A stretch of 43,275 nt of DNA from Pseudomonadota bacterium (GTDB taxonomy: Bacteria > Pseudomonadota > Gammaproteobacteria > CALCKW01), in the NCBI GenBank assembly GCA_039196715.1, contig JBCCUP010000036.1, positions 1-43,275 of the forward strand, read 5' to 3'. Numbering within the stretch: the first letter of the stretch is position 1; each line of letters starts with the position of its first letter. Positions 6,141-26,906 of the stretch are shown one piece after another. The notes beneath the pieces are model-generated. The model saw only the letters and a program-made list of their open reading frames with translations. It searched no databases and had not been told where the DNA came from. Both the position numbers and the translations under genes were made by a program.

Positions 6141-6276
6141 GCCCTGCCCTGCCGCGCTGGGTTCACGGGATTCGGCTCAAAAGGCACTGGGATTCGGCAA
6201 CGCATGGTTGCTCCGCACGGCCAGCTGGACGGCTGGCCGCATCTGACTGAAACACCCCGTCCAGAGTTACACGGCA
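6141..6276 (-). other. Untranslated leader between the B12 riboswitch and the chelatase gene
   Basis: About 135 bases separate the riboswitch core from the GTG start. I see no open frame worth calling and no T-tract terminator. The last bases before the start are purine-rich (GGCAGGGC) and could serve as a weak ribosome binding site. The expression platform of the riboswitch is expected here, but I cannot tell from the sequence whether it acts on transcription or on translation. Confidence 0.5.
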
Positions 6277-6428
6277 CACAGGCAGGTTTCCTGGCTCGGC
6301 GTCTCCGGCGTTGCGCGCCTTCCCAGGCCAAAGCCCAGTGGCACATGCGCAATCCTCAGCCTGACAGTCGCGGGGGCGGCACGGGATTTCCACCCGTTTC
6401 CCTCTCAGCCACCAACGGGGTTGGGGCC
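6277..6428 (-). promoter_or_regulatory. Cobalamin (B12) riboswitch
   Basis: Read on the minus strand, this segment carries the conserved cobalamin aptamer landmarks in order: GGTGGC and a G/C-rich P2 arm, GAGGGAAAC, GGTGGAAATCCC, GCCGCCCCCGCGACTGT, then the GCCACTGG box (complement at 6338-6345) and the B12 box AGCCAGGAAACCTGCC (complement at about 6282-6297). Such elements sense adenosylcobalamin or a related corrinoid and shut off downstream genes. It lies upstream of the chelatase-cobH-cobL-tauE-cobI-cbiG operon, which is therefore expected to be repressed by the product of its own pathway. Confidence 0.96.
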
Positions 6429-6446
6429 ACCTGATGCAAGCCGTCT

Positions 6447-6452
6447 AGTATA
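6447..6452 (-). promoter_or_regulatory. Possible -10 element of the cobalamin operon promoter
   Basis: TATACT on the minus strand lies about 20 bases before the 5' end of the B12 riboswitch, the right place for a sigma-70 promoter feeding the riboswitch. No -35 box with normal spacing is convincing, so this is a tentative call. Confidence 0.4.
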
Positions 6453-7516: not shown

Positions 7517-8395
7517 TCAGTCCGGCGCGAGTGTGTCGATCAGAGTCGACACCATACGGTCACCCGCTCCGGCGTCGACCGCTGCCTCGATCAGGCCGCG
7601 CGCCGCCGACCCGGTCTGCGACGTCAGCCCCGCGTCGGCCGCCATGTCGGTGGCGTAGCGCACGTCCTTGCGGGCGTTGACCAGACTGAACGCGAGCGCC
7701 TCGGGGTTGCCCTTCAGGGCGTACTCGGCGACGAAGCCCATCATGCCGGAGTGGTTGGGCCCGGCGGCGACCACGTCGTAAAACTGCTTGCGGTCGATGC
7801 CAAGGCCGTCACACAGCGCAAACGCCTCCGCTGTGGCCGAGGCAACGGTCATACCGAACAGGTTGTTCAGCAGCTTGATCGTGTGGCCGGTGCCGAGGGC
7901 ACCGAGGTGAAAGACGTTTTCACCCACCACGTCGAACACGGGTTTGACGCGGTCAAACACCGCCTCGTCGCCCGACGCCATGATGTTGAGCTTGCCTTCG
8001 CGTGCGTGGCTTGGCGTGCGACCGAGCGGCGCGTCGAGCATGTGGCCGCCGGCCGCTGCAACGTCGGCGCCGAGCGCCCGCGTCGACCCCGGCAAGGACG
8101 TGCCGAAATCGACCACGACAGCGTCATTTTGCAAGCCTGCAATCACCCCGTCGTCGCCGCGCATGCGCGACTCGACGGACGCGGATGTGTCGACGCACAG
8201 CATGATCAGGTCGCAGGACTCGGCGAGGGCGCGCGCGCTGCCGTACTCGACCGCCCCGCGTGCCACGGCGGCGTCGACCGCCGTCCGGCTGCGGTTGGCA
8301 ACCACGCCGAGCGCGAGTCCGGCACCTTGCAGGCACTCGACCATCGCCGACCCCATGAGGCCAAGACCAATAAAACCGATTCGCTCAAAAGACAT
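7517..8395 (-). CDS. NAD(P)-dependent beta-hydroxyacid dehydrogenase (HIBADH/tartronate-semialdehyde reductase family)
   Basis: A 292-residue protein with an N-terminal Rossmann loop IGFIGLGLMGSAM (residues 6-18), the substrate-contact region VDFGTSLPGSTRAL, DAPLGRTPSHAREGKLNIM and the catalytic GHTIKLLNNLF segment with its lysine. The family oxidises or reduces 3-hydroxy acids such as 3-hydroxyisobutyrate, tartronate semialdehyde, serine or sulfolactaldehyde. The canonical D-[AT]-P-V-S-G segment reads DAPLGRTP here, so the substrate may be unusual. The ATG at 8395 is chosen over an upstream ATG at 8455 because the Rossmann strand follows at once. It lies downstream of the UxaA/GarD-type dehydratase, which suggests a role in sugar-acid breakdown. 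Confidence 0.88.
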   Translation of the reverse strand: MSFERIGFIGLGLMGSAMVECLQGAGLALGVVANRSRTAVDAAVARGAVEYGSARALAESCDLIMLCVDTSASVESRMRGDDGVIAGLQNDAVVVDFGTSLPGSTRALGADVAAAGGHMLDAPLGRTPSHAREGKLNIMASGDEAVFDRVKPVFDVVGENVFHLGALGTGHTIKLLNNLFGMTVASATAEAFALCDGLGIDRKQFYDVVAAGPNHSGMMGFVAEYALKGNPEALAFSLVNARKDVRYATDMAADAGLTSQTGSAARGLIEAAVDAGAGDRMVSTLIDTLAPD

Positions 8396-8475
8396 AGGGG
8401 GCTTCCAGTTGGGTGTCGGGCGCACGGATCCGCGCGTGGGTCGCGCCGCGTGCATTCGAGAAATTGCGAATGCCT

Positions 8476-8575: not shown

Positions 8576-10078
8576 TCACACCGTCGCGCCGATCTGCCAG
8601 GGCACGAACTCGAAGTCACCGAGCCCATAGGCTTCGGAGTGGGACGGATCACCGGAGGCCACTTCGAGCAACCGCGCGTAAATTTCACGGCCCACCGTCT
8701 CGACCGGCAGGTTCTCGCTCAGCACGCGCCCCGCATCGATGTCCATGTCATCTTGTTGCCGCGCATAGAGCTGACTGTTAGTGGACACTTTGATGCACGG
8801 TGCCGGCTTGGACCCGAAGGCGGACCCGCGCCCGGTTGTGAACACAACGAGGTTGCAGCCACCCGCGATCTGACCGGTCACGGACACCGGGTCATAACCG
8901 GGTGAGTCCATGAAGGCAAAGCCCGGTTCTGTGACCGCTTCGCCGTACTGATACACGCCGGTCAATTGCGTCGTGCCGCCCTTGGCAGCCGCGCCGAGGG
9001 ATTTCTCCAATATCGTTGTCAAGCCACCTTTCTTGTTACCCGGGCTCGGGTTGTTGTCGAGGCTGCCCCCGTTGCGCGCCGTGTAGTCCTCCCACCAGCG
9101 GATGCGGTCGAGCAGCTTCTCACCGACGTCGCGGTTCACGGCGCGGCGCGTCAGCAGGTGCTCGGCCCCGTAGATTTCCGGTGTTTCAGCGAGCACACCG
9201 GTGCCGCCCTGCGCCGCGAGCAGGTCGACGGCATAGCCAAGCGCGGGGTTTGCTGTGACGCCAGACCAGGCGTCCGAGCCACCGCACTGCAGCGCGACTT
9301 GGAGATCGGATGCCGGACAGGATTCGCGTGCCACCGCGTTGGCGAGCGGCAACATCTCGCGCACCAGCGCCACCCCGCGCTCGACTGTCGCCCTGAGGCC
9401 GTTGCAATCCTGAATGTTCATGGCCTGAAACAGGGGTCCGGATTGCAAGCCGTAGCGCTCGAGCAGCGTGTCGATCTGCAACATCTCGCACCCGAGGCCG
9501 ACCAACAGCACGCCCGCGTGGTTCGGGTGCTGCGCGTACCCGTGCATGACACGGCTCAAGGCCTCGAAGCTCTCTTTGCCGGACATGCCACAGCCGGTGC
9601 CGTGCACGTAGGCGACCACCCCGTCAACGTTCGGGTAGGCACCGAGATCCGCGTCGGTGAAGGCCTGCGCGATGTACCGCGCCGCAGTGGCCGAACAGTT
9701 CACTGACGTCAGTACCGCAATGTAGTTGCGCGTGCCGACCTTGCCGTTTGCGCGGCGGTACCCCTGGAAGGTGTCGACACGGTCGGGCGCAGCGGGTGCA
9801 ATGGCGTCGGTGGCGAAATCGTAGGCCGTCGACACCGGCTGGAAATCGAGGTTGTGCGTGTGCACGTGGCTGCCCGCTTCGATGGCCCCGTTGGCCGTGC
9901 CGATGCGTTGCGCGTATTTGTACAACGGCGCGCCGTCGGCGATGTGTTGCGTCGCCACCTTGTGGCCTTGGGGCACGTCGTCGCGCAGCGTCAGCCCGTT
10001 GATGACGCTGCCTGCGGCCCCGTCTTCGGTCAGGGTGATCACGTTGTCCTGCTCGGACAGTCGCACAAAGGCGTCCAT
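8576..10078 (-). CDS. UxaA/GarD-family sugar-acid dehydratase (altronate or galactarate dehydratase type)
   Basis: A 500-residue protein with both domains of the UxaA/GarD family. The N-terminal SAF domain (1-95) reads VPQGHKVATQHIADG and GSHVHTHNL; the main domain starts with FQGYRRANGKVGTRNYIAVL and includes VAYVHGTGCGMSG, VLLVGLGCEMLQID, LQCGGSDAWSGVTANPALG and AGGCNLVVFTTGRGSAFGS. Members dehydrate altronate, galactarate or similar aldonic and aldaric acids to 2-keto-3-deoxy acids using an iron or other metal centre. A ribosome binding site (GGAG) lies 9 bases before the ATG. It follows the PhyH-family oxygenase gene by 24 bases and probably forms an operon with it. Exact substrate is not settled. 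Confidence 0.9.
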   Translation of the reverse strand: MDAFVRLSEQDNVITLTEDGAAGSVINGLTLRDDVPQGHKVATQHIADGAPLYKYAQRIGTANGAIEAGSHVHTHNLDFQPVSTAYDFATDAIAPAAPDRVDTFQGYRRANGKVGTRNYIAVLTSVNCSATAARYIAQAFTDADLGAYPNVDGVVAYVHGTGCGMSGKESFEALSRVMHGYAQHPNHAGVLLVGLGCEMLQIDTLLERYGLQSGPLFQAMNIQDCNGLRATVERGVALVREMLPLANAVARESCPASDLQVALQCGGSDAWSGVTANPALGYAVDLLAAQGGTGVLAETPEIYGAEHLLTRRAVNRDVGEKLLDRIRWWEDYTARNGGSLDNNPSPGNKKGGLTTILEKSLGAAAKGGTTQLTGVYQYGEAVTEPGFAFMDSPGYDPVSVTGQIAGGCNLVVFTTGRGSAFGSKPAPCIKVSTNSQLYARQQDDMDIDAGRVLSENLPVETVGREIYARLLEVASGDPSHSEAYGLGDFEFVPWQIGATV

Positions 10079-10102: not shown

Positions 10103-11044
10103 TCAGGCGCAGGCGGGTGTGTTGCCGTCCCAGCGGTGAATGGGAATGTGTGGCTGTTGCGCCAGCCGGTCGCGCGCAGCTCGCCAGGCGTCGCGCATCG
10201 CCTCCCAGTGCGCGACCGGCGTGTGATTCACACTGCGCACAACGAAACTCGGAAAATGCGCGCGGCCGCTCGGTTCGCCCAGGCGGTGGTAGCGCAGGTC
10301 GAAAGACCATCGTATCCCGGTGCTCCGGTTCGGCAGCGAGGCGTGCGGTGTCGAGGGGTGCAGGACCACCAGCGACCCCGCCGGCACCGGCAGCGGGCGG
10401 GCACGGTCCATGTCGAGCAGGCTCGCCGGAATGTGGGTCTGTCCGGCCGGACAGTGGTCGATCAGGCCATCGTCGACGGGCCCCGGGACGACCGTGAGAC
10501 AGCCGTTCTCGACCGTGGCATCGGTCATCGCCACCCAAACGGTCACCATGGGGGTCCGGTCGGCGTCGGCGTGCGCCACGCCCCGATCCTGGTGCCAGGC
10601 CGTGAGCCCCACGTGGGCGCGGTCTTCGGTCGAGGCGAGCTCGTCGGCGGGCGGCTTCAGGCGCACGTGCTGAATCGGGTTGAGCGCGAGTTCGGGGCCA
10701 ATCAACGCGGCGGCGACGTCGAGCAGCGTCGGGTGCGTCATGAGATCGAACACCGCCGGCCCGATGTGAAACGGCGTGTCCGCGTCGATCTCACCGCCTG
10801 GCAAGGAGATGTCGAGGGGCTGAAACCAGTCCACGCCGCCCTGGTGCAGCGCCCGCAACCGGGACAGGAACCCGCCCACCGGCGGCGCAGCCAGCTGCCT
10901 CCGCGCCAGCGCGCTGCCGACCAGCGGGTCCAGGAGACGGTCGTACTCGGCCTCGACCCGGTCCAACAGCGTCGGTTCGACGCACGCCGGCACCACAAGG
11001 TAGCCATCGCGTTCGAACGCCGTGCGTTGTGCATCGCTCAACAT
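10103..11044 (-). CDS. Phytanoyl-CoA dioxygenase (PhyH) family Fe(II)/2-oxoglutarate oxygenase
   Basis: A 313-residue protein with the 2-His-1-carboxylate iron facial triad of PhyH-type oxygenases: H151-Q-D153 in AWHQDRGVAH, and a distal H234 in HPSTPHASLPN followed by R245 in GIRWSFDLRY, the likely 2-oxoglutarate contact. The N-terminus SDAQRTAFERDGYLVVP is also typical. The family hydroxylates small molecules including phytanoyl-CoA, ectoine and phosphonates. The ATG at 11044 starts exactly at the family N-terminus; the frame stays open to 11203 but that stretch looks non-coding. It is the first gene of a minus-strand operon with the UxaA/GarD-type dehydratase, so its substrate may be the same compound or a precursor. 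This is inference from position. Confidence 0.87.
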   Translation of the reverse strand: MLSDAQRTAFERDGYLVVPACVEPTLLDRVEAEYDRLLDPLVGSALARRQLAAPPVGGFLSRLRALHQGGVDWFQPLDISLPGGEIDADTPFHIGPAVFDLMTHPTLLDVAAALIGPELALNPIQHVRLKPPADELASTEDRAHVGLTAWHQDRGVAHADADRTPMVTVWVAMTDATVENGCLTVVPGPVDDGLIDHCPAGQTHIPASLLDMDRARPLPVPAGSLVVLHPSTPHASLPNRSTGIRWSFDLRYHRLGEPSGRAHFPSFVVRSVNHTPVAHWEAMRDAWRAARDRLAQQPHIPIHRWDGNTPACA

Positions 11045-11217
11045 GGGGACGGTCTCCGCTTGCAAGACCCCCAGTATATCGCCCCACGGCGACGCGAACG
11101 GCCCTGGCGCGTGCGTCGCCACCACACGGCACGCCCGGTCGGTGTAGGGGTTTACCCTGATCTGAACTCGTGCACCGAGGGGGCATCCGAGACAGAGCCC
11201 CACTCGAGGATCGCGAT

Positions 11218-12640: not shown

Positions 12641-13246
12641 TCAGTCGCCGTGGCAGGCGTCGTACGCTGACACCAGCGCGCGCGCCAACTGGGCCGTGTC
12701 GGTCGCGCTCTGGCCGGGTCGGTAGATCGCACTGCCCACACCGAAGCCGGTGGCCCCGGCCGCCAGCCACTCGCCAAGGTTTGCTGCCGACACCCCACCG
12801 ACGGCGTAGACGCGCGTCTCCGGTGGCAACACGGCACGCAACGCGCGGATACCCCGCGGCTGCACCAGCTCGGCAGGAAACACTTTCAGGAGACTGGCCC
12901 CGGCCTGCAACGCCTGAAAGCACTCACTCGGACTGAACACACCCGGGCAGCTTTGCAGTCCGCGACTGACCGTGGCGTCGATAACCGCCGTGTCGCAGTT
13001 CGGCGAGACGATGAAGGTCCCGCCCGCCGACGCGACCGCGTCCACCTCGTCGGCGCGCAACACCGTGCCCGCGCCGATCTGTGCACGCCTGTCAAACGCG
13101 CGCGAGAGCCGCTCGATCGACACCAGTGGTTCCGGCGAATTGAGCGGCACTTCGATCTGGGTGACGCCCGCGTCGATCAACGCCGACCCAACGGCTTCGA
13201 CCGCATCGGGCGTCACGCCCCGCAAGATCGCCATGAGTTCGCGCAT
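12641..13246 (-). CDS. dgoA: 2-dehydro-3-deoxy-6-phosphogalactonate aldolase (KDPGal aldolase)
   Basis: A 201-residue class I aldolase of the KDPG/KHG family that splits 2-keto-3-deoxy-6-phospho sugar acids into pyruvate and glyceraldehyde 3-phosphate. The sequence has the family elements in order: MAILRGVTPDAV at the start, GVTQIEVPLNSPEP with the catalytic Glu, IGAGTVLRADEV, TFIVSPNCD, FSPSECFQALQAGASLLKVFPAE with the Schiff-base lysine, and YAVGGVSAANLGEWLAAGATGFGVGSAIY. Length equals that of DgoA. It starts 3 bases after the stop of the dgoK gene, which supports KDPGal rather than KDPG as substrate. Confidence 0.94.
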   Translation of the reverse strand: MRELMAILRGVTPDAVEAVGSALIDAGVTQIEVPLNSPEPLVSIERLSRAFDRRAQIGAGTVLRADEVDAVASAGGTFIVSPNCDTAVIDATVSRGLQSCPGVFSPSECFQALQAGASLLKVFPAELVQPRGIRALRAVLPPETRVYAVGGVSAANLGEWLAAGATGFGVGSAIYRPGQSATDTAQLARALVSAYDACHGD

Positions 13247-13249
13247 GGG

Positions 13250-14185
13250 TCAATCCCCGTCGGTTTGGCGTGCCAGGGCCAAGCCGGCCAGCACGCAGTC
13301 GGTGGGGTCGTGCACGACACTGTCGACCTCGATCAGGGCCAGCGCGCGTGCGTATCGCTGAGCGAGCTCGAGCTCACCGATCAGGTGCACCGTGCCGTGT
13401 TGCCGGCACGACGACGCCATCGAGCCGATCTCGACACCGATCAGCCAACCCGACAAACGTGCCAACGCCGCATCGGCCGCGAGGCCATTGAGCAGCGCCT
13501 CGGCCCGCAACCGGAACGCGGCGGTCAACACGTGTCCGGGGGCGTCGAGGGCGTCCCGCACAGCCGCCTCGAACGCGGCCGTGTCGAACAGGCCCGCACG
13601 CGACACCGTCAGCCGCAGCACGGTGTGGTGCCGAAACGCGGCGAAGGCCTCGCCGGTCAACGCCGTCGTGAAGGCGGCCACGCGGCCGCCACGCACCGTG
13701 ACCCATTTGCTGTGGCTGCCGGGCAGGCAGACAAGAGCGTCTGTGGTACCGGAGGTCACCAGCCCCGCGACCTGGGTCTCCTCACCGCGCATGACGTCGG
13801 CCGGTGTGCGTTGCGCCAAGCCCGGCACCACACGCACCGGCGAGCCGTTCAGTTGCCCGATTTCTGTCAACTCTTCTACGGCGAGTGGCGCCTGCCCCAC
13901 CGCCCGGTAGGGCACTTCCTGCCACCCGCCGCGCGCGCCGAGCATGCCACAACACAGGACCGGCACACCGGGATGCGCGCTCAACCACGTACCCACAGCC
14001 CGCTCCAGCACCGCGGGAAAGTCGGCCGGTTGCAAGCCGCCCATGCCGGCGTCGTTCGTCACGGCACCCAGCACACCCCCGTGCCGACCAACCGCCCAGG
14101 CACGCAGACGACTCGTGCCCCAATCCACCGCCACGTGCGACAGCGCGTCGGTGGCGAGCACCGTGGTACCACCCTCAGAGGGCAT
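13250..14185 (-). CDS. dgoK: 2-dehydro-3-deoxygalactonokinase
   Basis: A 311-residue sugar-acid kinase of the DgoK family, which phosphorylates 2-keto-3-deoxygalactonate at O6. The N-terminus VAVDWGTSRLRAWAV is the family phosphate-binding start, followed by GGLQPADFPAVLE, CCGMLGARGGWQEVPY, MRGEETQVAGLV, LVCLPGSHSKWVTV and FAAFRHHTVL, all typical. Its start overlaps the end of the preceding enolase-superfamily gene by 11 bases, and dgoA follows after 3 bases, giving a three-gene operon: acid dehydration or isomerisation, phosphorylation, aldol cleavage. The first dozen residues before VAVDWG are slightly longer than usual. Confidence 0.93.
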   Translation of the reverse strand: MPSEGGTTVLATDALSHVAVDWGTSRLRAWAVGRHGGVLGAVTNDAGMGGLQPADFPAVLERAVGTWLSAHPGVPVLCCGMLGARGGWQEVPYRAVGQAPLAVEELTEIGQLNGSPVRVVPGLAQRTPADVMRGEETQVAGLVTSGTTDALVCLPGSHSKWVTVRGGRVAAFTTALTGEAFAAFRHHTVLRLTVSRAGLFDTAAFEAAVRDALDAPGHVLTAAFRLRAEALLNGLAADAALARLSGWLIGVEIGSMASSCRQHGTVHLIGELELAQRYARALALIEVDSVVHDPTDCVLAGLALARQTDGD

Positions 14186-15338
14186 AGCGCTCGAGCATCG
14201 CGCGGTCGGGGGTCACACCGAGGCCGGGGCCGTTCGGCACGGCGACGGTGCCGCCGTGGTCTTTCACCTGCTGTTGAATGCTCAGCGGCTCGCGCAGCAG
14301 CTCGTCGCGAAACCGATTGTCGGTGGTGTCGAACTCCAGCCAGGGCTCGCGCGCGAAAAGACCACCGGGCACCGGCGGCATCGCCGCGAGCAGGTGCAGG
14401 TTGGTGGCCACCGCAACCGCGGACCCCCACACGTGGTTGACCACCGGCGTGAGGTGGCTGTGCGCCATGCCCAGCACCCGCTGAAATTCGCTGATGCCGC
14501 CAAGCGCACAGACTTCCGTTTGCGCGATGTCGACACAGCCGCGCGACAGCAGTTCGCGCCATCCCCAGCGCGAAAATTCCGCCTCGCCACCGGCGATGTG
14601 GGTGTCGAGCCGGTCGCGCAAGTGCCGGTATCCGTCGAGGTCCTCCGGCGCCACGGGCTCCTCGAACCAGTAGGCCCGCAGCTGGTCGAGCGCACGACCC
14701 ACCGTCAGCGCGTCGTGCGCCGTGTAGCAGTGGTTCGCATCGACCATGAAATCGAAATCGTCGCCGACGCCAGCGCGCACGGCCTCGCACAGGCGGATGT
14801 CATCGCGCGCGCCGAGACCGACTTTCATCTTGGTGGCGACAAAGCCGGCGTCACGGATCGCCGCGGCCTCGTCGCGGAACCGCGCGCAGTGCTCGGCCGT
14901 CGACTCGCGTTTGAGCATCATGCCGTAGCCGTACACCGGGACCCGCTCGCGGAAGGGCCCACCGAGCAGCCGGTGAACCGGTTGGTCGACGATCTTGCCG
15001 AAGAGATCCCACAGCGCGATGTCGACACCCGACAAGGCCTGCAGGGGCATGCCCTTCTGGCCGTGGTCGCGCAGAAGGTTGTAGACGCGGTGCCAGAGCA
15101 CCTCGCGCGCCATCGGGTCCTCGCCGAGCAACAGCGGCTGAATCACCTGCTCGACGATCGCCTTGTTGGCTACCGCCACGTTGCCCGGCCCGAAACACTC
15201 GCCCCACCCCGTCAGCCCGGCGTCGGTTTCCACCTCGACAAGGTGCGCTGTCCGACGCGCGTAGTACTGCTGCGAGTAGCCGAGCTCTTCAGGCAGGTCG
15301 TAGCCGAGCACGTGGCTCGTGATGCGTGTGATTTTCAA
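14175..15338 (-). CDS. Enolase-superfamily (mandelate racemase-like) sugar-acid dehydratase or lactone cycloisomerase
   Basis: A 387-residue TIM-barrel enzyme. The catalytic K170-x-K172 (TKMKVG), metal ligands D200 (MVDANHCY), E226 (WFEEP) and E252 (GGEAEFSRWG), and a late-barrel H302 (NHVWGSA) are all present. From memory the sequence resembles galactarolactone cycloisomerase and related KxK members (RDHGQKG-like loop, LSGVDIALWD, HVWGSAVA, NGPGLGV) more than D-galactonate dehydratase DgoD, which lacks KxK. Yet its operon partners are dgoK and dgoA, so it should yield a 2-keto-3-deoxy acid. I chose the TTG at 15338 because homologues start at MKITRI; GTG codons 6 and 11 codons upstream are alternatives. 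Substrate is open. Confidence 0.88.
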   Translation of the reverse strand: MKITRITSHVLGYDLPEELGYSQQYYARRTAHLVEVETDAGLTGWGECFGPGNVAVANKAIVEQVIQPLLLGEDPMAREVLWHRVYNLLRDHGQKGMPLQALSGVDIALWDLFGKIVDQPVHRLLGGPFRERVPVYGYGMMLKRESTAEHCARFRDEAAAIRDAGFVATKMKVGLGARDDIRLCEAVRAGVGDDFDFMVDANHCYTAHDALTVGRALDQLRAYWFEEPVAPEDLDGYRHLRDRLDTHIAGGEAEFSRWGWRELLSRGCVDIAQTEVCALGGISEFQRVLGMAHSHLTPVVNHVWGSAVAVATNLHLLAAMPPVPGGLFAREPWLEFDTTDNRFRDELLREPLSIQQQVKDHGGTVAVPNGPGLGVTPDRAMLERYAL

Positions 15339-15595: not shown

Positions 15596-17179
15596 CTACC
15601 GCAGCATCATGGTCAGCTCGGGGAAAAACAGCACCGCCGTCAGGATCACGAGCTGCAGCAGGATGAACGGCAGGAAGCCCCGAAAGATCTGCGGCAAGGT
15701 GATGTGCGAGGGTGCAACGGACTTGAGGTAGAAGGCCGCGGGTCCGAACGGTGGCGACAGGAAACTCACCTGCATGTTGATGCAGAAAAGGATGCCGAAC
15801 CAGACGGGGATGAAGGAGCGCGCGTCGACCAGCGGCGAGAACATGCCAAGGTCCGCCACCGGCAACTTCAACACGATCGGCAGGAACACCGGCATGACGA
15901 GCAACACGATGCCGACCCAGTCCATGAACGCCCCGAGAAACAGGAAGATCAGCATCATCATCAACAACACGCCGAGCGTCGGCAGTTCGGCACCGACGAT
16001 CAGGTTGGCGACGTAGGTCGGGCCACCGGCTATCGTGTAGGCGCCGGCCAGCGCCGTGGCCCCGAAGGTGACCCAGATGATCGTGCCGGTGGATTTGAAG
16101 GTCCGCATCAGGGCTTCGTGCACGAGGTTGAAGGAGAACTCGCCGCGGAAGATGATCAGCACCAGCACCGCGATGCAGCCCATGCCCGCCGCTTCGGTGA
16201 TGCCCGTGATGCCGCCGTAGATCGAGCCGAGGACCACAAACACCACCAACAGCGGCGCCACCAGGCCCTTGCCGATGCGCCACGCCTCGCGGACGCGGGC
16301 CGGTCCCATGACAAACAGCAGGTACGCCAACAGCACGCCTGCACCGATCAGCGCCTGGGTAACAAAGGCGTTGCTGACCATCGAGGTGTCGTCTTCGATG
16401 CGATCGAAGTACTGCAGGAACACCGCGCGCACGACCAGCAGTACCAGACCGCCCGTGACCAGCAACGAGATCAGGATCGAGCCGTTGATGAGCTTGGCGC
16501 GCCCGTCCATGTCGTCGGGGTTTGGCTCGGACAAGGGCGCGAGGTCCGGGTTGATGCGCGTGCGGATGATGATGTACACCATGTACAAGCCGGCCAACAT
16601 GAAGCCCGGTACGAACGCGGCCTTGAACAACGCGTGGATCGACGTCTCCGTGATCAGCCCGTACATGATCAGCACGATCGAGGGCGGGATCATGGTGCCG
16701 AGCGACCCGGACGCGCAGATGGTGCCGATCGCCAGGTTCTGGTTGTAGCCAAGCCGCAGCATCTGCGGCAACGCGATCAGGCCGAGCAACACCACTTCAC
16801 CGCCGATGATGCCGGACATCGCCGCCATCACCACGGCCATCACCGAGGTCACCAGCGCGATGCCGCCGCGGGTGCGGTTCAGCCAGAGGCTCAGGCTGCT
16901 GTACATGTCGCGCGCGATGCCGGAGCGCTCCAGCAAGGTCGCCATGAAGATGAACAGCGGCACCGATATGAGCACGTAGTCGGTGGTGAGCCCGTACATG
17001 CGCTGCGCGAGAATGCTGAGCGGGCCGCGGCCGAAGTCGCGAAACAGCAGGTCCGGCCCGAACTTCATGACCAGCACCGCAACCGCCAGAATGCCCGAGG
17101 CGAACCCGAGCGGCATGCCGATGGCGAGGAGCACCAGCATGCCAATCAGCAAGACCAGTGAGATGGTTCCGATATCCAT
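15596..17179 (-). CDS. dctM: TRAP transporter large permease (DctM-type)
   Basis: A 527-residue membrane protein with about twelve to fourteen hydrophobic segments, longer than a basic DctM (about 430), as is usual for the COG4664 (mannitol/chloroaromatic, FcbT3-like) branch. Visible hallmarks are SVPLFIFMATLLERSGIARDMY, IGGEVVLLGLIALPQMLRLGYN, GTICASGSLGTMIPPSIVLIMYG and, in the second half, TEAAGMGCIAVLVL and WVGIVLLVMPVFLPIV. It forms the Na+-driven channel of the TRAP system with DctQ, 5 bases upstream on the same strand, and DctP. Within a sugar-acid gene island it most likely imports the acid that the enzymes degrade. Confidence 0.95.
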   Translation of the reverse strand: MDIGTISLVLLIGMLVLLAIGMPLGFASGILAVAVLVMKFGPDLLFRDFGRGPLSILAQRMYGLTTDYVLISVPLFIFMATLLERSGIARDMYSSLSLWLNRTRGGIALVTSVMAVVMAAMSGIIGGEVVLLGLIALPQMLRLGYNQNLAIGTICASGSLGTMIPPSIVLIMYGLITETSIHALFKAAFVPGFMLAGLYMVYIIIRTRINPDLAPLSEPNPDDMDGRAKLINGSILISLLVTGGLVLLVVRAVFLQYFDRIEDDTSMVSNAFVTQALIGAGVLLAYLLFVMGPARVREAWRIGKGLVAPLLVVFVVLGSIYGGITGITEAAGMGCIAVLVLIIFRGEFSFNLVHEALMRTFKSTGTIIWVTFGATALAGAYTIAGGPTYVANLIVGAELPTLGVLLMMMLIFLFLGAFMDWVGIVLLVMPVFLPIVLKLPVADLGMFSPLVDARSFIPVWFGILFCINMQVSFLSPPFGPAAFYLKSVAPSHITLPQIFRGFLPFILLQLVILTAVLFFPELTMMLR

Positions 17180-17184
17180 GGCTG

Positions 17185-17763
17185 TCAGTCCCGGCTGTCG
17201 CTGTCAATGGATTGGGCGCGCCGGATCTCCTCGATCTCGGACACCCACTCTTCGTCGGCAATGCCGGGTTGGTCTTCCTTGCCCCAGTCCATGATCAGGT
17301 TTGACACCGCCTGGACAGTGACGAACACCATCGTGATGAGAATCAGGGGCTGTGATATCGCAGGGATGGGCGGTGCCCAGGCCGAGTCGTAACGCTCCCA
17401 GGTCAGGAAGGCCTTGACCGCTTCGTTGTAGCCGCCCCAGATCGTGGTGAAGGCCCAGACGACGATGAGCACCGCCGAGACGATGTCGAACACCCGCCGC
17501 AGCCAGAGCGGCACGATGTCGTACAGGAGCGTGATGCGGATGTGCGAGCGCTGTTGCATGGCGTAGACGCCGGCCGACAGGTAGATCCAGCCGCCCATCC
17601 ACAGGCTCATCTCGTTGACCCAGATCGTCGGCTTCTCCAGCACGTAGCGCATGAAGACCTCATACACAATCATGGTGACGATCAGGGCCGGAAACAGGTA
17701 CGTGATCCGGCTCAGGCGCCAGTTGATCTGATCAACCCACCCGCGTCTTTCGTGTTCGATCAT
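17185..17763 (-). CDS. dctQ: TRAP transporter small permease (DctQ-type)
   Basis: A 192-residue protein with four membrane segments, the DctQ pattern. It contains YEVFMRYVLEKPTIWVNEMS, the most conserved DctQ stretch, and YAMQQRSHIRITLLYD. The C-terminal tail is long and acidic, as in the larger (COG4665) branch. The ATG at 17763 is chosen over a TTG two codons upstream. It lies between dctP, from which a hairpin terminator separates it, and dctM, 5 bases downstream. Confidence 0.94.
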   Translation of the reverse strand: MIEHERRGWVDQINWRLSRITYLFPALIVTMIVYEVFMRYVLEKPTIWVNEMSLWMGGWIYLSAGVYAMQQRSHIRITLLYDIVPLWLRRVFDIVSAVLIVVWAFTTIWGGYNEAVKAFLTWERYDSAWAPPIPAISQPLILITMVFVTVQAVSNLIMDWGKEDQPGIADEEWVSEIEEIRRAQSIDSDSRD

Positions 17764-17855
17764 GCTCAATCCTCGTCATCGGACGCCCGATCCCGACACC
17801 GACCGGACCTCTGCGCCGCACGGGCAACGGCGAACGCTGCCGGCCCGTCCGGCTG

Positions 17856-17915: not shown

Positions 17916-18926
17916 TTACTTCATCAGACCCATGTTGGTCAGGAAGTCGATGTGCGACTCCAGCAGGGCTTTTGCGTCGTCGTTGTCGGCAAACTCGGTC
18001 CAGCCGATCTTGACCGCTTCACGGTACTTGCCGAGCTCTTCGGGAGACCACTCGTACAGGTTGACGCCCTTGGCACGAAGGTCCTTCGCGGTTTGCGCGT
18101 TCTTCACTTCGTTCGCGGTGGCGTTGCGCAGAGCGAGCGCTTCCATCGCGATCTTCATGATGTGCTGGTGGTGCGCCGGCATGTCATCCCACACGGCCTT
18201 GTTACACGCCAGGTGGTCCGCAGGCATGGAGTGGAAGCCCGGGTAGTTGGTGTGCTCGGCGATGTCGTAGAGGCCAAGACCGACGTTGTTGGTCAGGTTG
18301 GCCGCATCGGCACCGTCGATGATACCGGTCTCGAGCGCGGTGAAGATCTCGTTGAAATCCATCACGATCGGCGAGGCGCCCATGGCCGCGAAGACCTTGG
18401 TTGCCAGGCCCGGCGGAGAGCGGAATTTCCAGTCCTTGAAGTCAGCCACGCCGGCGATCGGCTTGGTTGACGACAGTGACTCGGGGCCCGGGATCCACCA
18501 GCCGACGAACTCCATGTCGTACTTGTTGTACAGCGCCTGAACCTTGTCGAAACCGCCAGCGTGCAGCATCCACGCGAGCTGCTGGTAGGGGTTGGTGTAG
18601 CCGCCGAGCAGGTCGCCGGCGAACTGGAACGCCGGGTTCTTGCCGGTCTGGTAGCCGCCGCCGGTCATGTCGCAGTCGAGGATGCCGTTGACCGCGGCGT
18701 CGAAGGTTTCAACCGACTTGACCACAGACGACGAGTAGAACATCTCGATCTGGATTTCGCCGTTCGACATCTTCTGGACGTCTTCGACCCACTCGGCCGC
18801 CATCTGACCGGACAGGGTTTCGGGTGAGAAGTGTGTCTGGATGCGCAACGACGTGGTGTCTGCAACGGCCGCCGTAGACAGTCCGGCAGCCAGCGCAGCC
18901 GTGAGCAAAGCGTTCTTGAGTTTCAT
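17916..18926 (-). CDS. dctP: TRAP transporter periplasmic substrate-binding protein (DctP-type)
   Basis: A 336-residue exported protein with a signal peptide (MKLKNALLTAALAAGLSTAAVA, cleavage after about residue 22). The mature part has SLRIQTHFSPETLSGQMAAEW, GWWIPGPESLSSTKPI, FKDWKFRSPPG with the conserved carboxylate-binding arginine, and DGADAANLTNNVGLGLYDIA, typical of the COG4663 branch that includes alpha-keto acid binders such as TakP. It captures an organic acid and delivers it to DctQM. A good ribosome binding site (GGGAG) precedes the ATG. The divergent neighbour is the GntR regulator, with about 186 bases between the two starts. Ligand is not known; a sugar acid or keto acid fits the context. 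Confidence 0.94.
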   Translation of the reverse strand: MKLKNALLTAALAAGLSTAAVADTTSLRIQTHFSPETLSGQMAAEWVEDVQKMSNGEIQIEMFYSSSVVKSVETFDAAVNGILDCDMTGGGYQTGKNPAFQFAGDLLGGYTNPYQQLAWMLHAGGFDKVQALYNKYDMEFVGWWIPGPESLSSTKPIAGVADFKDWKFRSPPGLATKVFAAMGASPIVMDFNEIFTALETGIIDGADAANLTNNVGLGLYDIAEHTNYPGFHSMPADHLACNKAVWDDMPAHHQHIMKIAMEALALRNATANEVKNAQTAKDLRAKGVNLYEWSPEELGKYREAVKIGWTEFADNDDAKALLESHIDFLTNMGLMK

Positions 18927-19112: not shown

Positions 19113-19793
19113 ATGGCAAGCCCCGAACCACAACTCGGACCCCCGCAAAGCAGTGCGTTCGAGCGCGTCAAGACCGCGCTCATGACCGGCGGCTTTCACG
19201 CGGGCAGCCGGTTGAAAGCCGAGCAGGTCAAGACCCGTTTCGGGCTCAGCGCCAGCGCTGCGCGCGAGATCCTGTTGCGTCTGACCGGCGAGGGTCTGCT
19301 GGTGCAAGAGGAGAACCGCGGTTTCCACGTGCCCGAGGTATCGATGCGGTCGCTCAACGACGCGATGGAATTGCGCTCGCTGCTCGAGTGCGCCTGTGTT
19401 GAAGGTTCGATTGCGCACGGCGACGTCGAATGGGAAGCACGCCTGACAGCCGCCCACCACAAGCTCGCACACGTCGAGCAGAAGATGCGCGAGGCCACGG
19501 TGCTCGACCCCTTCATCGAGATCTGGACCCGCACGGACAGCGAGTTCCATGAGACGTTGGCATCCGCGTGCCCGTCGACCACCCTGCGCGCGGCCCGGCT
19601 CAACGCGCACGAGCGCTCGCGCATGCACGCCATTTCCATCCTGCCCACCTACGGCTTCCGCGAACGCACCGTGCCCGAACACGCCGACATCCTCGCCAGC
19701 GCCCTCGCACGCGACACACCGCGCTGTCAGGCGGCCATCCGCGCGCACTTCCATGCGCTGGGCGAAGATGCCAACCTTCGGGGCCTGGCATAG
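19113..19793 (+). CDS. GntR-family (FCD) transcriptional regulator
   Basis: A 226-residue regulator. Residues 15-80 form the winged-helix DNA-binding domain (FERVKTALMTGGFHAGSRLK, then LSASAAREILLRLTGEGLLVQEENRGFHVP). Residues 85-220 are an all-helical FCD ligand domain with the metal or acid-binding pattern D-FHETLASACPS-R, then PEHADILASALARDT and AAIRAHFHALG. FCD regulators usually sense organic or sugar acids. It is divergent from dctP and starts a plus-strand run of five sugar-acid enzymes, with the DenD-like gene 23 bases downstream, so it most likely controls both directions. AGGAG precedes the ATG. Confidence 0.93.
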   Translation: MASPEPQLGPPQSSAFERVKTALMTGGFHAGSRLKAEQVKTRFGLSASAAREILLRLTGEGLLVQEENRGFHVPEVSMRSLNDAMELRSLLECACVEGSIAHGDVEWEARLTAAHHKLAHVEQKMREATVLDPFIEIWTRTDSEFHETLASACPSTTLRAARLNAHERSRMHAISILPTYGFRERTVPEHADILASALARDTPRCQAAIRAHFHALGEDANLRGLA

Positions 19794-19816
19794 CGACACC
19801 GAACGAGGTAACCCCC

Positions 19817-20833
19817 ATGACTGAGCACGGCGACGCAGGCACGCGCATCCTGATCCTCGGCGGTGCCGGCATGCTCGGTCAGAAGCTGCTGCAACACCTC
19901 GCGACGCACGGCCTGCCCGGGCAGGCAATCGAATCGGTCTGTCTCTACGACATCGTCGAGCCCGCCGCACCGGAGGGCCTGCCCTTCTCGGTCAGCACGC
20001 GCACGGGCGCCCTGCACACGGCGGGCGAGGCCGACTGGCTGGCCGCGCAGCGCGCCGACGCGGTGTTCCACCTGGCCGCGATTGTCTCAGGCGACGCCGA
20101 GCGGCACTTCGATCGCGGTTGGGACATCAACGCCCGCAGCAGCTGGGCGCTGCTCGAGGCCCTGCGCAACGAGCACCTCGCCAGCGACGGCAGCTACCGC
20201 CCACGCCTGGTGTTCGCCTCGAGCATCGCGGTGTTCGGCGCGCCGTTCCCGGACAAGATCGGCGACGACTTCCACGCCACCCCGTTGACGTCCTACGGGT
20301 CGCAGAAGGCCATGACGGAGTTGCAGGTCGCCGACTACAGCCGCAAAGGATTCGTCGACGGCATCAGCGTCCGTTTGCCCACGGTCACGGTGCGCCCGGG
20401 GAAGGCCAACCTCGCCGCCTCCTCGTTCTTCTCGAGCATCATCCGCGAGCCGCTCAACGGCCAGCGTGCCGTGTTGCCGGTCGACGACTCGGTGCGCCAT
20501 TGGCACGCGTCACCGCGCTCGGCGGCGGGCTTTCTGGCCCACGCTGCCACCCTCGCCCAAGCCGACCTCGGCGGTCGCCCGACGCTCAACATGCCCGGCT
20601 ATTCCTGTACCGTTGCCGAGCAGATCGAGGCCCTGCGCAGCGTCGCCGGTGGCGACGTGGTCGCGCGCATCGTGCACCAACCGGACCCCGAGGTCGCGGC
20701 TATCGTGCACAACTGGCCGCGTAACTTCGACGTCCAGCGCGCGCCGGCACTCGGCTTCCGAAGCGAAGCGAGCTACGAAGACATCATCCGCGTCTACATC
20801 GAAGACGACTTGCCCCACCACCCGCCAACCTGA
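19817..20833 (+). CDS. DenD-like NAD-dependent sugar-acid dehydrogenase (extended SDR)
   Basis: A 338-residue extended short-chain dehydrogenase. The NAD-binding loop GGAGMLG is at residues 15-21, VFHLAAIVSGDAE follows, and LVFASSIAVFGAPFPD and PLTSYGSQKAMTELQ hold the catalytic Ser and Tyr-x-x-x-Lys. The stretches RLPTVTVRPGKANLAASSFF and SVRHWHASPRSAAGFL are, from memory, characteristic of D-erythronate dehydrogenase DenD and its close relatives. DenD normally works with OtnK, OtnC and OtnI, none of which is here, so a different sugar acid or an aldose may be the real substrate. It follows the GntR gene by 23 bases and precedes the SDR by 12. Confidence 0.9.
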   Translation: MTEHGDAGTRILILGGAGMLGQKLLQHLATHGLPGQAIESVCLYDIVEPAAPEGLPFSVSTRTGALHTAGEADWLAAQRADAVFHLAAIVSGDAERHFDRGWDINARSSWALLEALRNEHLASDGSYRPRLVFASSIAVFGAPFPDKIGDDFHATPLTSYGSQKAMTELQVADYSRKGFVDGISVRLPTVTVRPGKANLAASSFFSSIIREPLNGQRAVLPVDDSVRHWHASPRSAAGFLAHAATLAQADLGGRPTLNMPGYSCTVAEQIEALRSVAGGDVVARIVHQPDPEVAAIVHNWPRNFDVQRAPALGFRSEASYEDIIRVYIEDDLPHHPPT

Positions 20834-20845
20834 GGAACGCGCCCT

Positions 20846-21589
20846 GTGACCGAACGACTCGCCGGAAAACGCACCCTGATCACCGCCGCCGGCCAAGGCA
20901 TCGGTCGCGCCACTGCGCTCGCCATGGCGGCCGAGGGCGCACACGTGATCGCGACCGACATCAGCGCCGACACCCTGGCTGAGCTGGCGCGAGACAGCGA
21001 AAACACAATCGAGACCGCGGTGCTCGACGTGCTGGACCCGGCCGCCATCCGCGCGATGCTGCCCGACCTCGCCGCGGACGTGCTGTTCAACTGCGCTGGC
21101 GTGGTGCACCACGGCAGCCTGCTGGACGCGACCGACGAAGACCTCGACTTCGCGATCGACCTCAACATCCGCGCCATGTGGCACACCTGTCGCGCTGTGC
21201 TGCCGGGCATGCTCGAGCGCGGCACCGGCTCGATCATCAACATGTCGTCGGTGCTGTCATCCGTGATCAGCGCGCCGAACCGCTGCGTCTACACGGTCAC
21301 CAAGGCCGCCGTGGTCGGGCTGACCAAGTCGATCGCCCACGAGTACGTGACACAGGGCATTCGTTGCAACGCGATCTGCCCCGGCACCGTCGACAGCCCG
21401 TCGTTCCGCGAGCGGGTTGCCGCGACTGGCGACGCGGTGCAAGGCATGAAGGATTTCGTCGCCCGGCAGCCCATGGGACGGGTCGGCAAGGCCGAGGAAA
21501 TCGCGGCGCTCGCGGTCTACCTCGCCTCGGAGGAAAGCGCGTTTACCACCGGCCAGGCCCTGGTCATCGACGGGGGCTGGACTTCGTGA
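20846..21589 (+). CDS. SDR-family dehydrogenase, probably 2-keto-3-deoxy-acid dehydrogenase
   Basis: A 247-residue classical short-chain dehydrogenase. The cofactor loop is [12 protein letters not shown] (13-24), the NAD-type acidic residue follows in [15 protein letters not shown] is the NAG motif, and the active site is NMSSVLSS with Y149-x-x-x-K153. The end [15 protein letters not shown] is typical. The sequence resembles the subgroup containing 2-keto-3-deoxy-L-fuconate dehydrogenases and human DHRS6. Next to an IlvD/Edd dehydratase and a FAH hydrolase, the likely job is oxidising a 2-keto-3-deoxy acid at C4 to a 2,4-diketo acid. The start is GTG at 20846; the stop overlaps the next GTG (GTGA). 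Confidence 0.9.
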
Positions 21590-23379
21590 GCGACGCCGAG
21601 CGGCCGCTGCGCTCGCGCGCCTGGTTCAACAACCCCGACGACCCGGAGATGACGGCGCTCTACCTCGAGCGGTACCTGAACTACGGCCTGACGCGCGAGG
21701 AACTGCAGGGCGGAAAACCCATCATCGGCATCGCGCAGACCGGCTCAGACCTGTCGCCCTGCAACCGCCACCACGTCGAGTTGGCCCGTCGCGTGCGCGA
21801 CGGGGTGATCGAGGCGGGCGGCACCGTGATCGAGATTCCGGTGCACCCGATCCAGGAGACCGGCAAGCGCCCGACCGCGATGCTCGACCGCAACCTCGCC
21901 TACCTGTCGCTGGTCGAGTCGCTCTACGGCTACCCGATCGACGGCGTGGTGCTGAACATCGGCTGCGACAAGACCACCCCCGCCCTGCTGATGGCGGCTG
22001 CGACCGTCGACATCCCGGCCATCGCGCACTCGGTCGGGCCGATGTTGAACGGGTTCTACCGCGGCGAGCGCACCGGAAGTGGCACCATCGTCTGGAAAGC
22101 GCGGCAACTGCTCGCCGCCGGCGACATCGACGACAACGGCTTTACCGACCTGGTGGCCTCCAGCGCGACCTCGGTCGGCTACTGCAACACCATGGGGACA
22201 GCCACCACGATGAACTCGCTGGCCGAGGCCCTCGGCATGCAGTTGCCGGGGGCGGCCGCGATCCCCGCACCCTACCGCGAGCGCGGTCAGATGGCCTACC
22301 GCACTGGCCAGCGCATCGTCGAGATGGTGCGTGCCGACCGCAAACCGTCCGACGTGATGACCCGCGAGGCCTTCGAGAACGCCATCGTCGTCAACTCCGC
22401 GATCGGCGGCTCGACCAACGCACCGATTCACCTCAACGCGATTGCGCGCCACATCGGTGTGCCACTCGACAACGACGACTGGCAGCGCCTCGGGCTCGAC
22501 ATCCCGTTGCTGGTCAACCTGCAGCCGGCCGGCAGCTACCTCGGCGAGGACTACCACCGCGCCGGGGGCGTCCCGGCGGTGATCGCGGAGTTGCTCGAGG
22601 CGAACCTCCTGCCCCACCCGGACGCGCTGACTGTCAACGGCCGCAGCCTGGCCGACAATTGCCGTGGCGCCGAGATCATCAGCCCGGATGTCATTCACAG
22701 GGCTGCAACGCCACTTCAGCAGCAGGCCGGCTTCGTCAACCTGCGCGGTAACCTGTTCGATTCGGCGATCATGAAGCTCAGCGTGATCACACCGGAGTTT
22801 CGGGCGCGCTATCTCGAGAACGCCGACGACCCCAATGCCTTTGAAGGGCGCGCCATCGTGTTTGACGGGCCCGAGGATTTTCACCGGCGGATCGACGACC
22901 CGGCCTTGCAGATCGACGCCGACTGCCTGCTGGTGATGCGCGGCGCCGGACCGATCGGCTACCCCGGGGGGGCAGAGGTCGTCAACATGCGCCCGCCCGA
23001 CTACCTGATCAAACAGGGCATCAGCGCTCTGCCGTGCATCGGCGACGGGCGTCAGTCGGGCACCTCCGGGTCGCCGTCGATCCTCAACGCGTCTCCGGAA
23101 GCCGCTGACGGTGGCGGGCTTGCGCTGCTGCAGACCGGCGACCGCGTGCGCATCGACCTCAACGCCGGCACCGCCGACATGCTGCTCGACACCGCGACGC
23201 TCGACGCACGGCGCGCGGCGCTGGACGCGGCCGGGGGCTACCAGAGCCCGGCGGACCAGACACCCTGGCAACGCCTGTTCCGGCGCGAGGTCCGACCTTT
23301 CAGCGAGGGCATGGTGCTCGGCGACGCGCCCGATTTCAAACGCATCGCGGCGGGCAGCCTGCCGCGCAACAACCACTGA
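21586..23379 (+). CDS. IlvD/Edd-family Fe-S sugar-acid dehydratase
   Basis: A 597-residue enzyme of the dihydroxy-acid/aldonate dehydratase family. The iron-sulfur ligands fit Cys59 (SPCNRHH), Cys127 ([10 protein letters not shown]) and Cys200 ([13 protein letters not shown]). [35 protein letters not shown] and [20 protein letters not shown] are also family blocks. The length and the SDLSPCN and [13 protein letters not shown] segments place it with the L-arabonate/D-xylonate-type sugar-acid dehydratases rather than with IlvD itself. The start is the GTG at 21586, coupled to the SDR stop (GTGA); an in-frame start further upstream exists but lies inside the SDR gene. Product should be a 2-keto-3-deoxy acid that the neighbouring SDR could oxidise. 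Confidence 0.93.
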
Positions 23380-23392
23380 TGGAAGTCCACCC

Positions 23393-24230
<838 letters not shown>

Positions 24231-24238
<8 letters not shown>

Positions 24239-25202
24239 CACCGCACCTCAGCCTGCCGTGCTCTACGTCGGCGGCGTACCACCGCACGCACTCGACGCCT
24301 TGCACCAACACTTCCGCGTGCACACGCTGGCCGACATCGTCGATCGCGACGCGTTCGTCGCCGAACACGGCGCCACCGTCTTCGGCGCGGTCACCAACGG
24401 ACACGACGGCTTCTCGACCGACTGGATGGACGCCCTGCCGGCGTTGAAGGTGATCTCCTGCTGCGGCGTCGGCTACGACGCCATCGACGCGAACGCCGCC
24501 GCCGACCGGGGCATCATGGTGACCCACACACCGAACGTGCTGAACGCCGACGTCGCCAATACCGCGATCATGCTCATGCTCGCCACCAGCCGGCAGTTGC
24601 TGCGCGACGACGCCTGGGCGCGCAGCGGCGCCTGGGCGGCCAAGGGTGCTGCTCCGCTGACGCGCTCGATCGAGGGGGCCACGGTTGGGATATTGGGGCT
24701 CGGCCGCATTGGCGAATCGCTGGCGTCCAAACTGCAAGCCTTCAATTGCCAGGTCCACTACCACACCCGGACCCGCCGGGACCACGTCGACTACACCCAC
24801 CACACCAGCGCGGCGTCACTTGCCGAGGCCTCCGACTACCTCGTGGTGATCACGCCGGGTGGTGCGTCCACGCAACACCTGGTCAACCGCGAGGTGCTCG
24901 ACGCGCTCGGCCCCGACGGGACGCTCATCAACGTCTCGCGCGGCTCAGTGGTCGACGAGGCCGCGCTGGTCGATGCCATCACCGAGGGACGCTTGCACAT
25001 GGCCGGGCTCGACGTGTTCGAGCACGAGCCGACCATCCCGGAAGCCCTGACCCGGAGCGACCGCGTGGTGCTGCTGCCGCACGTCGGCAGCGCAACGGTC
25101 GAGACCCGCCGTGCGATGGGCGACCTCACCGTCGACAACCTCCTGAGCTGGCGGCGCGACGGCGCCGTGTTGACGCCGGTGCCCGAGTGCGCCGCGCACT
25201 GA
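24231..25202 (+). CDS. D-isomer-specific 2-hydroxyacid dehydrogenase
   Basis: A 323-residue NAD(P)-dependent dehydrogenase of the glyoxylate/hydroxypyruvate reductase type. It has VISCCGVGYDAID near residue 80, the Rossmann loop GILGLGRIGESLA, LINVSRGSVVDEAAL with the catalytic Arg, GLDVFEHEP with the Glu and LLPHVGSATVETR with the His. It overlaps the FAH gene by 8 bases, so it is coupled to it. In the proposed pathway it would interconvert the two-, three- or four-carbon hydroxy acid released by the FAH enzyme (for example glycolate, glycerate or lactate) with its keto form. The substrate is inferred, not visible. Confidence 0.92.
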
Positions 25203-26115: not shown

Positions 26116-26906
26116 GGTTCGACTTCATGCCGAGCCAGCGCGTCCCGAAGCGCGTCACCGCACAAGTTGATCGCAAGCACGCACACCACCACCGCCATAC
26201 CCGGCCAGATCATCTGCAAGGGTGTCGAGCGCATGTGAATGCGCGCGTCGAGCAGCATGGTGCCCCACTCGGGTGTCGGGGGCTGCACACCGAAGCCGAG
26301 AAAACCGAGCGCAGAGATGCCGAGAATGGCGCGCGCGAACATGCCGGTCCAAACCACCGTCAGCGACGGGAGCAGCGACGGCAGGTAGTGCCAACGCGCG
26401 ATCGCAAGCGGCGAGAGCCCTGCGAGCCGTGCCTGCACCACGTACCCACGGTGCTGCACCGACAACCCGATACCGCGTGCGACGCGGCAATATCGCATCC
26501 AGCTCACCACACTCAACGCAAAAACCAAGGTGCCGGTACCAGCGCCAAGCAATCCGGCGATCACCACGGCAGCAACAAGCTCCGGGAACGCGAGAAACGT
26601 GTCGGTCACGCGCATGATGGCCCAATCGACGGCCTTGCCACCCATCGCCGAGATCAGACCGAGTACCGTGCCGATCACCAGGCCGATGACGGACACCAGA
26701 AACGCAAGCCCGAGCGACCACCGCGCACCGTGCAGCAACCGCGACAAGATATCCCGTCCGAGCGCATCGGTGCCGAGCAACCAATCACCGCTCGGCGGCT
26801 GCAAGCGCTTGGGGATGTTGATCGCGGTTGGATCGTAGGGCGCAAGCAGCGGCCCGACCACCGCAACCAGCAGGCACGCGATCACCAACCACGCCACGCT
26901 ACGCAT
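26112..26906 (-). CDS. ABC importer permease, DppC/NikC/OppC type
   Basis: A 264-residue permease with six membrane segments. The N-terminal region includes LLAPYDPTAINIPKRLQPPS and WLLGTDALGRDILSRLLHGARWSL, the most typical DppC/NikC block, and the EAA-type loop ARLAGLSPLAIARWHYLPSL is present. It overlaps the DppB-like gene by 8 bases when started at the ATG at 26906; a longer start at 26930 is possible but would add eight residues overlapping the upstream gene. It pairs with the DppB-like protein to form the membrane channel of an oligopeptide/nickel-type importer. Confidence 0.93.
   Translation of the reverse strand: MRSVAWLVIACLLVAVVGPLLAPYDPTAINIPKRLQPPSGDWLLGTDALGRDILSRLLHGARWSLGLAFLVSVIGLVIGTVLGLISAMGGKAVDWAIMRVTDTFLAFPELVAAVVIAGLLGAGTGTLVFALSVVSWMRYCRVARGIGLSVQHRGYVVQARLAGLSPLAIARWHYLPSLLPSLTVVWTGMFARAILGISALGFLGFGVQPPTPEWGTMLLDARIHMRSTPLQMIWPGMAVVVCVLAINLCGDALRDALARHEVEP

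Follow-up and report, generated by a model that had tools for sequence, protein, structure and literature searches.

A probable DauB-type cycloisomerase encoded between TRAP transporter genes and dgoK-dgoA in the genome of a marine gammaproteobacterium

The stretch of DNA analysed here (the window) comprises positions 1 to 43,275 of contig JBCCUP010000036.1 from the Pseudomonadota bacterium assembly GCA_039196715.1 (Gammaproteobacteria; CALCKW01), a genome of 4.95 Mb that is 96% complete. On its minus strand, an enolase-superfamily enzyme is encoded together with the kinase and aldolase genes dgoK and dgoA and the genes of a TRAP transporter, in the transcript order DctP, DctQ, DctM, enolase-superfamily enzyme, dgoK, dgoA:

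17916-18926, minus strand: TRAP substrate-binding protein (DctP); best solved relative 4pe3, a TRAP DctP subunit (E 4e-48).
17185-17769, minus strand: TRAP small permease (DctQ); NF007374 E 4.5e-6, under cut-off, with the partner kept in relatives.
15596-17179, minus strand: TRAP large permease (DctM); TIGR00786 248.7 bits, under the cut-off of 268.
14175-15338, minus strand: enolase-superfamily enzyme (mandelate racemase/muconate lactonizing enzyme family, KxK type), DauB-like cycloisomerase, intact; PF13378 197 bits, PF02746 62 bits; TTG start.
13250-14185, minus strand: DgoK/DauC, 2-keto-3-deoxy-galactonate kinase; Pfam PF05035 (DGOK) 289 bits against a cut-off of 25.
12641-13246, minus strand: DgoA/DauD, 2-keto-3-deoxy-6-phosphogalactonate (KDPGal) aldolase; NCBIfam NF006600 272.6 bits against a cut-off of 207.

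The enzyme gene overlaps dgoK by 11 bases, and dgoA begins 3 bases after dgoK. Alignments make TTG at 15338 the probable start codon of the enzyme: the matches of all 80 relatives considered below begin at residue 1 counted from it, and DauB of Pseudoalteromonas carrageenovora begins there too. The kinase and the aldolase, each scoring over its family cut-off, form a DgoK-DgoA (De Ley-Doudoroff) module; the best solved relative of DgoA is the 2-dehydro-3-deoxy-6-phosphogalactonate aldolase 2v81, and this dgoK is the single DGOK gene of the genome. For the TRAP binding protein, the solved relatives are listed with no ligand named and thus give no hint of its substrate.

A first-pass annotation of this DNA had taken the trio of enzyme, dgoK and dgoA for an unusual pairing. 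That view did not survive, as the published dauB-dauC-dauD set for 3,6-anhydro-D-galactose likewise combines an enolase-superfamily enzyme with a 2-keto-3-deoxy-D-galactonate (KDGal) kinase and an aldolase. Among 72,556 plasmids searched, 278 records matched the enzyme, four of them at 60-80%. One of the four is the carrageenan plasmid of P. carrageenovora, where the enzyme is the second gene in the order aldehyde dehydrogenase, enzyme, KDGal kinase, KDPGal aldolase; its DauB (PCAR9_p0041) is 63.9% identical to the window enzyme, its best match. These plasmid genes were named dauA, dauB, dauC and dauD by similarity in an organism that grows on 3,6-anhydro-D-galactose (PMC6262041), and all four dauA-D activities were measured in Zobellia (PMC5698469). 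In the other three plasmid matches, too, an aldehyde dehydrogenase lies directly upstream of the enzyme, and in Sulfitobacter sp. SK012 the kinase and aldolase genes follow downstream. These three dehydrogenases are 52-56% identical to P. carrageenovora DauA, while a GabD control reached 34-35% against the three and 34-37% against any of the four. Compared with this 3,6-anhydro-D-galactose pathway, the window trio lacks only the initial step, that of the aldehyde dehydrogenase DauA.

The gene neighbourhood was compared across 80 loci from named genomes (the best 80 of 485), using fetched stretches of up to 10 kb per side, some of them short, so that all neighbour counts are minimum counts. The gene architecture recurs in other genomes and is therefore more than chance. 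A DauA-like dehydrogenase lies directly upstream of the enzyme in 21 of the 80 relatives and a TRAP binding-protein gene in 24, with both in none; dgoK falls within the fetched stretch in 18, directly downstream of the enzyme in 12 of these. The nearest named relative, an uncultured Granulosicoccaceae bacterium (L009; enzyme identity 83%), has a layout identical to that of the window. In both, all TRAP genes precede the enzyme, DctM being the last of them, which places L009 outside the 24 TRAP-linked loci. Cultured roseobacters with the TRAP version include Ruegeria arenilitoris (L049) and Shimia sp. SK013 (L077). A KDGal kinase is present in all 47 genomes tested, near the enzyme or not. A class-wide search found a close relative in 4 of 369 genomes, three of which belong to the window's own genus (the window genome included); no Paraglaciecola copy was reached. 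At 16 of the 80 loci, and at L093-L095, a GMC oxidoreductase, with a small partner gene in annotated cases, and an ABC sugar transporter lie upstream of the dehydrogenase-enzyme pair, a layout of many marine alphaproteobacteria.

The KxK, D, E, E and His ligands that had been read from the third gene were borne out by alignment with two solved proteins, Zobellia DauB (ZGAL_3156, PDB 5olc) and A. tumefaciens galactarolactone cycloisomerase (Gci, PDB 4ggb/4hpn), the catalytic residues of both being named in the 5olc paper, which also identifies 4ggb/4hpn as Gci (PMC5698469). Residues K170, K172, D200, E226, E252, H302, W304 and D91 of the window enzyme align with Gci K164, K166, D194, E220, E246, H296, W298 and D87, and the KxK, D, E, E, H set aligns with the catalytic residues of Zobellia DauB as well. 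All named catalytic and metal residues plus D91 are identical in 80 of 80 relatives, and W304 in 79. Four further residues (S22, Q23, Y26 and E254) occur in all 80 relatives and Zobellia DauB but in none of the four Gci examined, which carry W at position 254; they are also among the invariant residues that TRAP-linked and dehydrogenase-linked members have in common. S22 and, where aligned, E254 extend to the Azospirillum, Pantoea and fucose-type relatives, and the combination of Q23 and Y26 is limited to DauB proteins among those compared.

A quick tree, from which the distant second enzyme of L095 (Roseib2) was excluded, united 85 rows (the window, P. carrageenovora DauB and 83 relatives) in one branch with support 99. 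Within it, TRAP-linked and dehydrogenase-linked members were intermixed (fewest label changes 6 and 10). Gci formed a separate branch, and Zobellia DauB fell outside the 85 rows on a long branch of unsure placement. These results bear on the possibility that the enzyme is a Gci-like lactone cycloisomerase acting on galactaro- or glucaro-lactone. The resemblance to lactone cycloisomerases noticed earlier is real, as Gci is the top solved relative (300 bits, 43.3% identity), with 5olc also among the leading solved matches, and 25 conserved positions are common to Gci and absent from Zobellia DauB. However, the Gci-branch genes inspected adjoin kdgD in 3 of 3 annotated cases, whereas the window enzyme adjoins dgoK-dgoA, whose products would have no use for what Gci makes; together with the separate branch and the Trp-to-Glu difference at position 254, this makes a Gci-like activity very improbable. 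Gci function as the leading interpretation was ruled out by the tree branch and the residue differences.

From sequence kinship, residues and gene order, we infer the substrate and chemistry: the enzyme is probably (about 0.66) a DauB-type 3,6-anhydro-D-galactonate cycloisomerase that produces KDGal. In the proposed mechanism, a Lys of KxK would abstract the C2 proton, the metal bound by D200/E226/E252 would stabilise the enediolate, and the C3 ring oxygen would depart as the C6 hydroxyl, assisted by H302. The resulting enol would turn into KDGal, which DgoK would phosphorylate and DgoA would then cleave to pyruvate and glyceraldehyde-3-phosphate. The earlier proposal that KDGal arises from a different acid thus stands in part: KDGal is most likely supplied from another acid, but likely by ring opening of 3,6-anhydro-D-galactonate and not by plain dehydration, and this acid was not among the candidates then listed (galactonate, gluconate, fuconate and galactaro-lactones).

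The enzyme might instead dehydrate an open-chain C6 aldonate, either D-galactonate or one of its C2 epimers (for instance D-talonate), that is imported by the TRAP transporter, and so replace DgoD as the source of KDGal. TRAP transporters commonly carry acids. The first-pass view that the enzyme is not of the DgoD type was confirmed, as it scores 171.3 bits for NF010624 against a cut-off of 311, which rejects DgoD or close kin; no DgoD-type gene over this cut-off was found elsewhere in the window genome either, an absence that is likely, not certain, at 96% completeness. Other sugar-acid dehydratases of UxaA and IlvD/Edd type are encoded at the locus, and a 42% relative in Pantoea adjoins dgoK-dgoA, where the 9 kb viewed contained no anhydrogalactose genes. 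Further genes around the trio and the TRAP operon, several of them frequent with the TRAP version of the locus, are:

19113-19793, plus strand: GntR/FCD regulator, divergent from the TRAP operon (PF07729, PF00392).
10103-11203, minus strand: PhyH-type dioxygenase, frequent with the TRAP version (PF05721; 13 of 80 loci).
8576-10078, minus strand: UxaA/GarD-type sugar-acid dehydratase, frequent with the TRAP version (PF20629, PF04295; TIGR03248 400.9 bits, under the cut-off of 731; 17 of 80 loci).
7517-8455, minus strand: 3-hydroxyisobutyrate-dehydrogenase-family protein, frequent with the TRAP version (PF03446, PF14833).

Against an open-chain substrate, residues and tree place the enzyme with the dehydrogenase-linked DauB genes (64-71% identity), and P. 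carrageenovora has a dedicated galactonate dehydratase in its carrageenan cluster, a different protein about 30% identical to the window enzyme and without KxK. A close match to a proven galactonate dehydratase, the result that had been named as refuting the earlier view, did not turn up, given the low NF010624 score and the 30% identity. Dehydration of an open-chain aldonate is accordingly unlikely.

A second sugar-acid gene set lies at 19568-25202 on the plus strand. It encodes a D-erythronate-dehydrogenase-type NAD epimerase (NF043036, over cut-off), an SDR, an IlvD/Edd-type dehydratase (grouped with a protein containing PF00920), an FAH hydrolase and a 2-hydroxyacid dehydrogenase, and looks like a non-phosphorylating keto-deoxy acid route. 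SDR, IlvD/Edd, FAH and 2-hydroxyacid dehydrogenase genes accompany the enzyme in several relatives as well, and a 38% relative adjoins an L-fucose mutarotase gene. The substrate of the enzyme could thus be a different acid, L-fuconate for instance or some further deoxy or anhydro aldonate, with the product passing to the nearby SDR, FAH hydrolase or 2-hydroxyacid dehydrogenase and dgoK-dgoA serving some other input. Yet the enzyme gene overlaps dgoK by 11 bases, which argues for a common product, and the SDR/IlvD/FAH set also occurs without the enzyme, so that this alternative is distinctly improbable.

The linkage to DauA that marks DauB systems is missing in the window and its genome, where the best match is at 35-37% identity; this bears on the input of the pathway, not on the reaction of the enzyme. 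A Sulfitobacter DauA-like query was searched in 35 genomes, many of them drafts (those of the window and L009, the full set of 24 with TRAP linkage, and 9 of the 21 with dehydrogenase linkage). It was found in 9 of 9 dehydrogenase-linked genomes (66-82% identity), as expected from their having been chosen by this gene, and in 0 of the 26 TRAP-linked genomes (the window, L009 and the 24 others), where the best match, at 38%, was at background level. The TRAP-linked genomes therefore lack the enzyme that would make the acid from the sugar. Importing the acid directly could plausibly take its place, suggesting that the acid itself is taken up by the adjoining TRAP transporter. The two contexts can be read simply as one enzyme activity supplied in two ways.

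The reverse does not hold, as a DctP gene is also present in 9 of the 21 dehydrogenase-linked genomes. Of these nine TRAP clusters, seven lack the enzyme, one has it at full length and one retains a 77-residue remnant. The remnant lies between DctP and DctQ (L114 7055-7285, in the genome of L055, Ruegeria meonggei), and a full-length copy sits elsewhere beside a DauA-like gene. The absence of the enzyme from most TRAP clusters in these DauA-bearing genomes would be consistent with redundancy; it shows at the same time that such clusters serve other functions. On Thalassococcus and Loktanella plasmids, for example, TRAP genes that lack the enzyme have uronate, threonate or IlvD/FAH-type genes as neighbours, and the transporter may carry several sugar acids.

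Going by the GH127 search given below, the host seems ill-equipped to release anhydrogalactose from carrageenan on its own, which fits a scavenger and is no proof of one. No carrageenan enzymes were recognised adjoining the enzyme in family scans of the neighbouring window genes, and the genome has 19 sulfatase matches. It is plausible that the TRAP-linked, DauA-less layout represents a variant of the pathway whose key step is uptake of 3,6-anhydro-D-galactonate. A broader and more doubtful proposal is that this acid, the carrageenan sugar in oxidised form, is a free marine exometabolite, which many roseobacters and some gammaproteobacteria import via TRAP and open with DauB, without carrageenases or sugar dehydrogenase, in a cross-feeding pathway that starts one step later. 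If uptake proves true, species exchange part of the red-algal carbon in the form of an oxidised anhydro sugar acid, not as sugar. A DauB-type assignment would also provide a testable substrate for a large marine protein group now annotated merely as mandelate racemase/muconate lactonizing enzyme family. In the literature searched, from which subscription papers were largely absent, no paper was recognised as connecting enzymes of this type to TRAP transport.

Several observations weigh against assigning the enzyme to 3,6-anhydro-D-galactonate. Its identity to the solved DauB of Zobellia (37.6%) is lower than that to Gci, and P. carrageenovora DauB was itself assigned by similarity and position. 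The conserved positions common to Zobellia DauB alone (21) and to Gci alone (25) are balanced, and therefore the sequence gives no proof of substrate. Residue 274 (window 14517-14519, minus strand) is T in the window enzyme and P in all 80 relatives; T274 is a local oddity of the window genome. Only one of the 24 TRAP-linked loci has dgoK within the fetched stretch, and the occurrence of the TRAP cluster without the enzyme means that the cargo of the transporter is not fixed by the enzyme. The approximately 42% relative in Azospirillum, in the same TRAP layout, and the Pantoea relative with dgoK-dgoA belong to soil or plant bacteria, for which algal sugars are unlikely. Finally, GH127, one anhydrogalactosidase family of the Zobellia pathway, was not found in the window genome, in a search that did not extend to the second anhydrogalactosidase family or to carrageenases.

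The Azospirillum case is on plasmid p3 of A. brasilense (L101 2894-7849), in the order DctP, 42% relative, DctQ, DctM, GntR, and places the TRAP pairing in the rhizosphere, outside the sea. Elsewhere in the window, the gene of a DUF3179 protein (PF11376; 11170-12615, plus strand) runs opposite to its flanking genes, dgoA on one side and the PhyH/UxaA genes on the other, and adjoins dgoA in L009 too. A cobalamin riboswitch lies at 6264-6449 on the minus strand (109.7 bits against a gathering score of 31.5). ARAGORN called a 93-base tRNA-Ala at 27707-27799 on the minus strand, inside a long open reading frame (26899-28383); Rfam gave no tRNA in the window at gathering scores, and the call is probably false.

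Among known systems, Gci has named catalytic and metal residues that align with those of the window enzyme, whereas its lid residues differ; no kdgD-type match was found among the window neighbouring genes scanned. DgoD-type galactonate dehydratases (PRK14017/NF010624) belong to the same superfamily and would also supply dgoK-dgoA. 3,6-anhydro-L-galactonate cycloisomerase (PDB 5xd7) is alike in ring opening and superfamily, but the match is far weaker (103 bits), and it belongs to an L-sugar pathway that ends by other steps (PMC5943477). The closest system is that of DauB. Enzymes of the 3,6-anhydro-D-galactose route have been characterised in P. atlantica, according to PMC5943477, and the T6c operon is described in PMC6952198; 5olc, listed as "Galactonate dehydratase", is shown by its own paper to be Zobellia DauB, a 3,6-anhydro-D-galactonate cycloisomerase (PMC5698469). 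The window enzyme has superfamily, catalytic residues and KDGal kinase plus KDPGal aldolase neighbours in common with DauB of Zobellia and P. carrageenovora. Unlike those systems, it adjoins a TRAP transporter, and dauA is missing both from its neighbourhood and from the rest of the genome; import of the acid via that transporter is proposed because of this lack. The trio is thus known from carrageenan-eating bacteria, and what may be new is its setting behind an acid importer instead of a sugar-oxidising enzyme.

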